DNA of 64,000 nucleotides from contig NZ_WIXO01000001.1 in the NCBI RefSeq assembly GCF_009709575.1, positions 5,458,001 through 5,522,000 of the forward strand, written 5' to 3'. The stretch is from Streptomyces taklimakanensis. Lineage in GTDB: Bacteria; Actinomycetota; Actinomycetes; Streptomycetales; Streptomycetaceae. Position 1 is the stretch's first letter; each line of letters begins with the position of its first letter. This document shows, in pieces, positions 18,108 through 60,613 of the stretch. The translations under genes and the position numbers were made by a program. Below the pieces are notes generated by a model, which searched no databases, was not told where the DNA came from, and saw nothing but the letters and a program-made list of their open reading frames with translations.

Positions 18108-18113
18108 CCGCCC

Positions 18114-18131
18114 TCACTACAGGTGTAGTAA
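18114..18131. promoter_or_regulatory. TetR operator 1
   Basis: TCACTACAGGTGTAGTAA: arms TCACTACA/TGTAGTAA around GG, one mismatch from a perfect palindrome. It lies nearer tetR, just upstream of its probable -10. Confidence 0.75.
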
Positions 18132-18142
18132 CGTCGTAGCTG

Positions 18143-18160
18143 TCACTACATCTGTAGTGA
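18143..18160. promoter_or_regulatory. TetR operator 2
   Basis: TCACTACATCTGTAGTGA: 8-bp perfect arms around TC, 29 bp centre to centre from operator 1 and 25 bp before the monooxygenase start. Two equal boxes between divergent genes suggest the regulator controls both. Confidence 0.8.
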
Positions 18161-18185
18161 GACCCCGTCGGGGAAGGACACCGCC

Positions 18186-41389: not shown

Positions 41390-41569
41390 CCCCGGTGCGG
41401 CCCACGTACAGGATCGCGTCCACGATGTCGCGCAGGTCGTGTTCCGGCGGCCGACCGAAGTCCAGGGCCCTGTCTGGCGGCGCTCGCGCCGCCAGACAGG
41501 GAGCACCGGCTCGATCAACTCCCAGCGGGCATCGGACGGATCGCTCGGGTACGGGCGTCGCGTCGGCAT
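41390..41569 (-). pseudogene. N-terminal remnant of an IS5-type transposase
   Basis: From ATG 41569 the minus strand reads MPTRRPYPSDPSDARWELIE then PVLPVWRRERRQTG. It then shifts frame and continues LDFGRPPEHDLRDIVDAILY and VGRTGV. The joined sequence matches the N-terminus of Streptomyces IS5-type transposases (YPSDLSDARWxLIEPxLPxW...RPPExDLRDILDAILYVxRTG). It ends at about 41390. The frame change lies by the perfect palindrome at 41468-41501. Confidence 0.75.
41468..41501. repeat. Perfect 16-bp-arm palindrome inside the transposase relic
   Basis: Arms CCCTGTCTGGCGGCGC and GCGCCGCCAGACAGGG with TC between them. It lies exactly where the transposase frame is broken. It would form a strong hairpin in either strand. 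Confidence 0.75.
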
Positions 41570-44790: not shown

Positions 44791-45735
44791 TCAGGCCGGT
44801 TCCGCCGACGTCCGCCAGGCGCGGTAGGTGGCGGCGATCCCCTCTTCGAGTCCGATCGAGGGGGACCAGCCCAGCGCGCGTATCCGGCTCACGTCGAGCA
44901 GCTTGCGCGGGGTCCCGTCGGGCCTGGTGGCGTCGAAGGCGATCCGACCCTCGTAGCCCACCACCGACGCGACCGTCTCGGCCAGCTCGCGGATCGTCAG
45001 GTCCGCACCGCAGCCGACGTTGACCGGCGCGTCGTCGTCGTAGCGGCGCAACAGCACCTCGCACGCGCCGGCCAGGTCGTCCACGTGCAGGAACTCGCGG
45101 CGCGGCGTGCCGGTGCCCCACAGCACGACCTCCTTCGCGCCTCTCTCCCGCGCCTCGTGGAAACGGCGGATCAGGGCGGGCAGGACGTGCGAGGTCTCCG
45201 GGTCGAAGTTGTCGTTCGGCCCGTAGAGGTTGGTCGGCATCGCCGAGACGAAGGAGGCGCCGAACTGCCGCCGGTAGGACTGGACCTGGACGATGCCGGC
45301 GATCTTGGCGAGGGCATAGGCCCGGTTGGTCGGCTCCAGGGGGCCGGTCAGCAGGGCGTCCTCGGTGATCGGCTGGTCGGCGTGCCTGGGGTAGATGCAG
45401 CTCGATCCGAGGAAGAGCAGCCGGCGCACCCCGGCGGCGTGCGCCCCGGAGATCACGCCGAGCTGGATGTGGAGGTTGTCCTCCAGGAACGGGACGGGAT
45501 ACGTGCTGTTGGCCATGATCCCGCCGACCTTCGCGGCGGCCAGGACCACGGCGTCGGGCCGGGTGTCGCGCAGGTACGCGGCCGTGGCGACGCCGTCGCG
45601 CAGGTCGAGTTCGGCGCGGGAGCGGGTCAACACCGTGTAACCGCGGCCGGCCAGGTGCCGGGCCACGGCGGAGCCGACCAGACCTCGGTGTCCCGCGACG
45701 AAGACGCGGGCGGGCGGGGGCAGCAGATCGTCCAT
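44791..45735 (-). CDS. fcl: GDP-L-fucose synthase (GDP-4-keto-6-deoxymannose epimerase/reductase)
   Basis: 314 residues. Extended SDR: cofactor motif [40 protein letters not shown], catalytic Ser in [11 protein letters not shown], YxxxK in [20 protein letters not shown] and [20 protein letters not shown]. The whole is near identical in layout to known GDP-fucose synthases. With the divergent gmd, it turns GDP-mannose into GDP-L-fucose for the polymer. The ATG 45735 has no ribosome site but a CACAAT 7 nt upstream, suggesting a leaderless message. Confidence 0.93.
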
Positions 45736-45742
45736 GGCGGGG

Positions 45743-45748
45743 ATTGTG
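45743..45748 (-). promoter_or_regulatory. -10-like element before fcl
   Basis: CACAAT on the minus strand ends 7 nt before the ATG at 45735. It resembles the element before the gene at 32529. Confidence 0.4.
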
Positions 45749-45809
45749 CCAGGGAACACCATGCTTTCATCCGACTTCTGGTGAAATACCGGCAGTCGGT
45801 GCCGTCGGC

Positions 45810-45856
45810 GCCGTCCCCCACGGCGGAACGGGCCCCGTTCCGCCGTGGGGGACGGC
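45810..45856. repeat. Perfect 23-bp-arm palindrome between fcl and gmd
   Basis: Bases 45810-45832 are the exact reverse complement of 45834-45856, with one base (C45833) at the centre. The left arm opens GCCGTCCCCCACGGCGG and ends AACGGG. It lies 41 bp before the gmd start and 74 bp from the fcl start, between the divergent genes. It could be a transcriptional operator, a strong hairpin in the gmd leader, or a terminator protecting the two promoters. Confidence 0.85.
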
Positions 45857-45897
45857 AGGGCGGGGCCGCACAACCGAACTCTCGTGGGGGGAGCACC

Positions 45898-46911
45898 ATG
45901 CCGCGTACCGCTGTGATCACGGGCATCACCGGGCAGGACGGCTCGTACCTGGCCGAACTGCTGCTGGGCAAGGGCTACACCGTGCACGGCCTGATGAGAC
46001 GCTCGTCCAGCTTCAACACCGAGCGCATCGACCACATCTACGAGGACCCGCAGACGCCCGGCCGGCGACTGGTGCTGCACCACGTCGACCTCTCCGACGG
46101 GGTGGCGCTGGTGAACCTGCTGCGCGACGTCCGGCCCGACGAGGTGTACAACCTGGGTGCGCAGTCCCACGTCCGCGTCTCCTTCGACGCCCCGCTCTAC
46201 ACCGGTGACGTGACCGGCCTGGGCGCCTTACGGTTGCTGGAGGCCATCCGCGCCGGCGGCGTGGAGACCCGGCTGTACCAGGCCTCCTCCTCGGAGATGT
46301 TCGGCTCCACCCCGCCCCCGCAGAACGAGACCACCCCCTTCCACCCCCGCAGCCCCTACGGCTGCGCCAAGGTCATGGCGTACTGGGCGACCGTCAACTA
46401 CCGGGAGGCGTACGGGATGCACGCCGTCAACGGCATCCTCTTCAACCACGAGAGCCCGCGCCGCGGCGAGACCTTCGTCACCCGCAAGATCACCCGTGCC
46501 GTCGCCCGCATCCGGGCCGGCCTCCAGGAGCACCTGTACCTGGGCAACCTCGACGCCGTCCGCGACTGGGGGTACGCCCCCGAGTACGTCGAGGCCATGT
46601 GGCGCATGCTCCAGCGGGACGAGCCCGACGACTACGTGGTGGCCACCGGGGTGGCGGCGACCGTCCGCGACTTCCTCGACGCGGCCTTCGGCGCCGTCGG
46701 CCTGGACTGGGAGCGACACGTCCGCCACGACCCCAAGTACGAGCGTCCCACCGAGGTGGACGCCCTGATCGGCGACGCCTCCAAGGCCCAGAAGCTGCTG
46801 GACTGGTCGCCCGAGGTGCGCTACGACGAACTGGCCCGGATCATGGTCGAGGCCGATGTGGCGCAACTGGAGGCCGAGCTCTCCGGACGCCGGGTGCGGG
46901 TGGACCGGTGA
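45898..46911 (+). CDS. gmd: GDP-mannose 4,6-dehydratase
   Basis: 337 residues. Extended [62 protein letters not shown], the catalytic Thr/Ser-Glu region [20 protein letters not shown], YxxxK in [20 protein letters not shown] and [20 protein letters not shown]. It converts GDP-mannose to GDP-4-keto-6-deoxymannose, the first step toward GDP-L-fucose or GDP-rhamnose. It is divergent from fcl. The stop overlaps the acetyltransferase GTG. The ATG lies behind GGGGGGAGCACC. Confidence 0.95.
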
Positions 46912-59446: not shown

Positions 59447-60613
59447 GTGAGACTGCTGCACACCTCGGACTGGCACCTGGGACGGAGCTTCCACCGGGTG
59501 AGCCTGCTCTCCGCCCAGGAGACGTTCGTCGACCACCTGGTGGAGACGGTGCGTGCCGAGCGTGTCGACGCGGTGCTGGTCGCCGGCGACGTCTACGACC
59601 GCGCGGTGCCGCCGCTGTCGGCCGTCGAACTCTTCGACGACACGCTGCACCGCCTCGCCGGCATCGGCGTGCCGACCGTCATGATCTCCGGCAACCACGA
59701 CTCGGCACGCCGGCTGGGGGTGGGCGCCGGGCTCATCGAGCGGGCGGGCGTCCACCTGCGCACCGACCCCGCCGGGTGCGCCGACCCCGTCCTCCTGGCC
59801 GACGCCCACGGACAGGTCGCCTTCTACGGCCTGCCCTATCTGGAGCCCGCCCTGGTCAAGGACGTCCTCGGGGTGGAGAGGGCGGCCCACGCGGACGTGC
59901 TGGGCGCCGCCATGGACACGGTCCGCGCCGACCTGGCCACCCGCCCGGCCGGCACCCGCTCCGTCGTCCTCGCCCATGCCTTCGTCACCGGGGGCGAGAC
60001 CTCCGACAGCGAACGGGACATCACCGTCGGCGGCGCCGCCTCCGTCCCCGCCGGGGTCTTCGACGGCGTGGACTACGTCGCGCTGGGCCACCTGCACGGC
60101 TGCCAGACCCTCGGCGACCGCGTCCGCTACTCCGGCTCGCCCCTGGCCTACTCCTTCTCCGAGGCCCACCACCGCAAGTCGATGTGGCTGGTCGACCTCG
60201 GACCGGCGGGCGAGGTGAACGCCGAGCGGATCGACTGCCCGGTGCCCCGCCCGCTGGCCCGCGTCCGAGGCCGGCTGGAGGACCTGCTCACCGACCCCGC
60301 CCTGGAGCGTCACGAGCGGGCGTGGGTCGAGGCCACTCTCACCGACCCGGTCCGTCCGAGCGAACCGATGGCCCGGCTCGCCGCCCGCTTCCCCCACGTC
60401 CTCACCCTCGTCCTGGATCCCGAACGGCCGCCCCAGGACCCCTTCGCCTCCTACGGCCGCCGGTTGCGCGACCGCACCGACGCCGAGATCGTGGAGGGCT
60501 TCGTCGCCCACGTCCGGGGCGGGACGGGCCCCGACGAGCACGAACGCGCCCTGCTGGGCGGAGCGTTGGACGCCGTGCGGGTCGAGGCCGCTCGCGGGGA
60601 GGCCCCACGATGA
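59447..60613 (+). CDS. sbcD: Exonuclease SbcCD, nuclease subunit
   Basis: 388 residues. Metallophosphatase motifs: LLHTSDWHLGRSFHRVSLLS (motif I), VLVAGDVYDRAVPP (II), TVMISGNHDSARRLGV (III), VVLAHAFVTGGE (IV) and VALGHLHGCQTLGDRVRYSG (V). It is the Mre11-type nuclease that opens DNA hairpins and blocked ends with SbcC. The start is GTG with GGAG upstream. It overlaps sbcC by ATGA. Confidence 0.94.
   Translation: MRLLHTSDWHLGRSFHRVSLLSAQETFVDHLVETVRAERVDAVLVAGDVYDRAVPPLSAVELFDDTLHRLAGIGVPTVMISGNHDSARRLGVGAGLIERAGVHLRTDPAGCADPVLLADAHGQVAFYGLPYLEPALVKDVLGVERAAHADVLGAAMDTVRADLATRPAGTRSVVLAHAFVTGGETSDSERDITVGGAASVPAGVFDGVDYVALGHLHGCQTLGDRVRYSGSPLAYSFSEAHHRKSMWLVDLGPAGEVNAERIDCPVPRPLARVRGRLEDLLTDPALERHERAWVEATLTDPVRPSEPMARLAARFPHVLTLVLDPERPPQDPFASYGRRLRDRTDAEIVEGFVAHVRGGTGPDEHERALLGGALDAVRVEAARGEAPR

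Follow-up and report, generated by a model that had tools for sequence, protein, structure and literature searches.

A perfect 47-bp palindrome between divergent fcl and gmd in a Streptomyces genome, most likely born by inverted duplication and possibly acting as a hairpin in the gmd leader

The DNA considered here is a stretch of 64,000 nucleotides from Streptomyces taklimakanensis (hereafter the window), taken from an assembly of 6.14 Mb in 3 contigs whose close named relatives are Streptomyces species. It contains two neighbouring genes in divergent orientation, i.e., fcl, encoding a GDP-L-fucose synthase-like epimerase of 314 aa (minus strand, 44791–45735, start codon at 45735), and gmd, encoding a GDP-mannose 4,6-dehydratase of 337 aa (plus strand, 45898–46911). 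The divergent arrangement that had been proposed for this pair is borne out, and the Pfam assignments fit both gene names. The flanking genes are assigned by Pfam to a sugar transferase, a hexapeptide-repeat protein and two glycosyltransferases, and the neighbourhood is an exopolysaccharide-type cluster. The gap between the two genes carries an AT-containing, partly conserved stretch at 45741–45800 with a GAAA(T/C) block at 45783–45787, which is the putative promoter region of fcl and gmd, and a purine-rich stretch resembling a ribosome-binding site, GGGGGGAG, at 45886–45893 on the plus strand before gmd. A scan of 45600–46000 for consensus promoters and terminators found none, structured-RNA families (Rfam) gave 0 matches above the gathering score in the window, and no report on Streptomyces gmd promoters was found among the literature matches listed.

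Within the same gap, positions 45810–45856 form an exact palindrome of 47 bases, composed of a left arm (45810–45832, 23 nt), a single central base and a right arm (45834–45856), with the arms 100% complementary. These coordinates, first given in the original prediction, proved exact on recheck, and so did the G/C-rich character of the element (39 of 47 bases are G or C); its placement 41 bp before gmd agrees with the ATG at 45898, and its other end is separated from the fcl start codon by 74 bp. As RNA, the palindrome folds into a 22-bp stem with a 3-nt loop at −51.8 kcal/mol (z −8.7). An arm of 23 pairs is expected by chance at about 1e-12 per site (an arithmetic estimate that assumes a round figure of ~72% GC), and 0 of 200 shuffled sequences folded as well, so that chance pairing is excluded.

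To place this element among its like, long perfect stems with loops of up to 12 nt were surveyed in the window and in a sample of 40 segments of 20 kb each from this genome (864 kb altogether), with gene calls from a simple codon-score script that make the convergent and divergent classes approximate. Eighteen stems of at least 20 perfect pairs were found, with 11 in convergent gaps, 5 in codirectional gaps, 1 at a stretch edge and 1 in a divergent gap, the last being the fcl–gmd palindrome, which is the sole stem of this length in the 108 divergent gaps surveyed. Expressed per kb of gap, the densities are 0.656 for convergent, 0.066 for codirectional and 0.030 for divergent gaps. Twelve stems, the fcl–gmd palindrome included, have at least 22 perfect pairs, the longest in the survey having 31, and three other stems of the class with at least 20 pairs have fold energies of −55 to −58 kcal/mol. 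The palindrome is, by its form, an ordinary Streptomyces transcript-end hairpin, and it is exceptional by its position; it has the long GC-rich stem and short loop of a terminator hairpin but does not follow a stop codon. The 8 nt that follow its stem contain no T, whichever strand is read, whereas the convergent-gap stems have a mean of 1.6 T there, with zero T in 10 of 48 readings.

Term-seq work has described the terminator hairpins of Streptomyces as long, GC-rich and U-poor (PMC8269248, PMC12207403). Their median length is reported as 32–35 nt, which is above that of most species compared (PMC12207403), and for S. clavuligerus the U-tract is reported to be absent from 353 of 535 highly structured 3′ ends (PMC8269248). 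The fcl–gmd palindrome is similar to these U-poor terminators, of the type described as I-shaped, in its long GC-rich stem, short loop and scarcity of U. The differences are as follows. First, the palindrome lies upstream of both genes. Second, it is unconserved in close relatives. Third, no T follows its stem. Two shorter repeats were also seen in codirectional gaps: a 16-bp perfect stem at 41468–41501 of the window, in a long gap beside a mycothiol-S-transferase-like gene, and an AT-richer 15-bp perfect inverted repeat at L150:945–985, which lies 9 bp from a gene boundary and has an operator-like look.

The comparison with relatives that the original prediction had suggested was run on the six closest named species keeping a divergent fcl–gmd pair, with loops of 3–20 nt counted, and the palindrome is absent from all six. 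The longest perfect stem in the gap is 7 pairs in barkulensis, 6 in radiopugnans, 12 in megasporus, 7 in pini, fewer than 6 in DH37 and 10 in carminius, such that 0 of the 6 have a hairpin with a stem longer than 12 bp at the orthologous place. A wider collection of 117 distinct fcl–gmd gaps, nearly all from Streptomyces, was counted after 39 loci had been dropped where fcl was missing or non-divergent, the gap was over-long or anchoring failed. No stem of at least 8 pairs is present in 87 of these gaps, and a stem of at least 17 is present in 4, namely the palindrome described here and those of L207, L009 and L008. These four stems start 49–74 nt from fcl, with the latter three at 49–59 nt; a recurrent stem position near fcl was considered and rejected, given that it would concern only 4 of 117 gaps, three of which are long gaps with similar fcl-side sequence. 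The 33-base core of the palindrome has no match in the contig collection, which may omit this or a very near genome, and no genome of the same species or nearer is present among those searched. In S. carminius, two fcl–gmd copies with identical gaps (L036 and L037) lie on two contigs of one assembly, reflecting either a duplication or an assembly doubling; G395, apparently the same genome as this assembly, is marked as 7% contaminated.

As controls, six palindromes in convergent gaps of the host genome were compared with radiopugnans, pini, megasporus and carminius. Two of them (L155 and L167) were without a clear orthologous gap and were left out. Among the 4 comparable controls, 3 keep a long stem in at least 2 of the 4 relatives, with arms that have changed yet still pair. 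L169 has 17–23 pairs in all four relatives, and L164 has 17–27 pairs in three of the four; the segment extracted from megasporus spans only 34 nt. In two relatives L174 has stems of 18 and 23 pairs, and the remaining two show longer-looped hairpins that the script did not count. L141 (at 6968) does not share its right-hand neighbour with the relatives, and no stem of more than 10 pairs was seen. This comparison suggests that ordinary end hairpins tend to persist across species, which the fcl–gmd palindrome does not. The three persistent controls (L169:1476–1537, L164:9224–9275 and L174:5288–5336) are perfect palindromes of 22–31 bp whose place is kept while the arms change together and stay paired, and with their counterparts they form a good set for studying how stems are maintained.

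The fcl–gmd gap is 162 nt long in this genome, compared with 137 nt in each of barkulensis, radiopugnans and pini and 140 nt in DH37; in the more diverged megasporus and carminius it is 118 nt and 147 nt, respectively. The GAAA(T/C) block stands equally far from fcl here and in barkulensis, radiopugnans, pini and DH37, which places the additional nucleotides on the gmd side. All possible deletions of 22–25 nt in the gap were then scored for the fit of the remaining sequence, summed over these four relatives. The best-fitting deletion is 22 nt long and starts 1–2 nt to the left of the palindrome, with a summed score of 210, compared with 164 without any deletion and 164 for the best deletion lying wholly outside the palindrome; every one of the 15 best deletions listed overlaps the palindrome. 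The two arms also behave differently when aligned separately with the four relatives. The right arm reaches a score that only 0.2% of shuffled arms attain when the centre is included (45833–45856) and 0.7% without it, whereas the left arm is equalled by 6.5–11% of shuffled arms. Taking out the right arm also gives a better fit, but the gain is smaller than with the left arm taken out, and since the four relatives are closely related, their alignments do not count as independent. The arm test covered 4 of the 6 relatives, megasporus and carminius being omitted as too diverged in the gap to align well; these two slightly favour removal of the right arm (25.0 vs. 23.0 and 16 vs. 14), with their best deletions elsewhere.

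Together, the deletion scan and the arm shuffles give moderate support to the view that the right arm and centre are ancestral and that the left arm is an inverted copy of the right, and the palindrome was most likely born, as judged from these alignments, by an inverted duplication of roughly 22 nt. Template switching can make perfect stems in one event, as reported in a study of RNA-gene histories by Monttinen and Loytynoja 2022 (PMC8794818). The hairpins described there would resemble the present one in that a reverse-complement copy lies beside its source, whereas here the setting is a bacterial promoter or leader gap and the ancestor is deduced from neighbouring species only. A literature search for the birth of bacterial terminators by template switching found none among the matches listed, which is not proof of absence. 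A recent replication error of the template-switch type would have copied the right-arm sequence into its own left flank, producing in one step a perfect hairpin with the strength of those at gene ends.

The arm test was also run on the palindromes of L207, L009 and L008, and a one-sided pattern appeared in L009. This locus belongs to another species (G039) and carries an unrelated 20-bp perfect palindrome in the fcl–gmd gap, 49–100 nt from the fcl start. Its left arm matches the relatives at a score that 0 of 400 shuffles reach, and its right arm does not (35%). Against 4 of the 6 relatives, however, the left arm by itself does not outscore the full palindrome, and L009 is therefore only a possible second case.

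Whether the palindrome could act on gmd depends on where transcription starts. The number of A/T bases per 20-base window is 10–11 in the three windows that span 45751–45790 and 3–4 in the seven that span 45791–45870, and on this composition gmd transcription probably starts near 45795–45805. Because the most AT-containing, partly conserved stretch lies on its fcl side, the palindrome is more likely to be inside the gmd leader than outside it. It would then lie close to the 5′ end of the mRNA whose first gene is gmd and would fold once transcribed, and it would be upstream of the fcl transcript rather than within it. Since no T follows the stem, the strength of termination is uncertain, and the element may serve as a U-less, probably leaky terminator or as a stable leader hairpin, by which gmd expression would be lowered or tuned. 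Premature terminators in 5′ leaders (attenuators) are a further close comparison, with 150 premature transcription units reported for S. clavuligerus (PMC8269248). The palindrome shares with the Streptomyces attenuators described there a terminator-type hairpin before the start codon and differs from them in having no Rfam match. Taken jointly, a young inverted duplication of ~22 nt and a terminator-type hairpin in the gmd leader that affects gmd constitute our preferred reading, to which we assign a probability of roughly 0.48.

It may instead be proposed that the inverted duplication left a neutral by-product with no selected role, and that gmd expression either tolerates the palindrome or starts elsewhere. 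Consistent with this, the palindrome is found in this genome alone among those examined. The folding of the gap in general was evaluated with up to 115 gaps, compared with the flanks of other divergent genes in the same host genome, and at the palindrome's own place (gmd −90 to −40) the mean z is −0.20 over 108 other gaps and −0.17 over 196 control flanks, i.e., no excess, which also agrees with neutrality. However, strong hairpins otherwise cluster at gene ends, and the arms are without mismatch though the gap differs considerably from those of relatives, so that the palindrome is either very young or maintained. We regard this explanation as less likely than the preferred reading, but as a serious rival to an effect on gmd.

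A further alternative is a selected insulator, i.e., a bidirectional terminator that stops antisense transcription or read-through in both directions between divergent promoters. The form of the palindrome, which matches the gene-end hairpins of the host genome, fits such a role, and the gaps of L009, L207 and L008, which are 250–413 bp long, contain perfect stems of 17–20 bp at 49–59 nt from the fcl start. The folding analysis offers some agreement too, since the region at fcl −120 to −70 has a mean z of −0.46 over 95 gaps, compared with −0.02 in other divergent genes. On the gmd side, the mean z is −0.45 vs. −0.22 in controls at −60 to −10 and −0.35 vs. −0.02 at −120 to −70. A weak tendency of fcl–gmd gaps to fold may lie behind these three values, which exceed the controls only slightly and come from gaps that are related. 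Conserved RNA structure was near a mean z of 0 in 88 gaps (−0.16 on the gmd side, −0.02 on the fcl side), and sliding fold windows over 105 gaps gave a mean z of −0.32 with no clear peak. Against an insulator stands the rarity of stems of at least 17 pairs among the distinct gaps, the palindrome itself being one of the few. In addition, the original prediction had placed the palindrome between the two promoters, which is doubtful, as the candidate promoter stretch at ~45741–45800 lies on its fcl side only. An insulating role thus appears improbable.

Operators have palindromic sequences and are often located between divergently transcribed genes, and a dimer or tetramer of a regulator could in principle bind here. 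One such site appears in the same window at 18113–18161, where an inverted repeat with 20-bp arms, 90% complementary and 9 nt apart, separates divergent TetR-family and FAD monooxygenase-like genes and looks like an ordinary TetR operator. The fcl–gmd palindrome, however, is longer than usual operators, and its 23-bp core is single in the genome within 2 mismatches, the sole other match having 3. It is also missing from the close species that keep fcl and gmd, and no regulator is present among the neighbouring proteins typed, which together make an operator very unlikely. The original prediction had suggested control of GDP-fucose supply through either protein binding or an RNA hairpin; the single-copy core and the absence in six species speak against the former, while a hairpin may act on gmd. 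A dispersed palindromic repeat of the REP-like kind is not supported, as the genome does not contain many similar copies. A false inverted copy introduced during assembly is hardly credible, since, although one arm resembles an insertion relative to four relatives, such perfect palindromes are common in the host genome and are found again at the orthologous positions of other assemblies.

The original prediction had also pointed out that SbcCD, encoded 14 kb away, attacks such structures. SbcD- and SbcC-like genes are indeed present, with starts at 59447 and 60610 and a distance of about 13.6 kb, but an attack is unlikely at a length of 47 bp, and comparable palindromes occur elsewhere in the host genome, far from sbcCD. 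For an interrupted palindrome of 85 bp in E. coli, PMC3315005 judges that SbcCD does not cleave it during replication, yet reports that inverted duplications at this site were still suppressed by SbcCD and RecA. The relevance of SbcCD to this palindrome is thus considered unlikely.

Several implications follow. As a caution, a conspicuous palindrome beside a gene is not necessarily a conserved operator, as perfect palindromes of 20–30 bp are routine at gene ends in this genome. Returning to the preferred reading of a young duplication in the gmd leader, a broader and rather unlikely extension, which we offer tentatively, is that a bacterial hairpin of terminator strength is observed here soon after its birth, in which case a single inverted duplication in a leader would yield a full-length perfect stem and offer a route by which terminators are gained or moved and an operon is re-tuned in one mutation. 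If L009 represents a second such event, inverted duplication would be a recurrent route. If the preferred reading is true, the fcl–gmd palindrome would be a natural example of a strong RNA hairpin that arose in a single step within a regulatory region of a bacterium.
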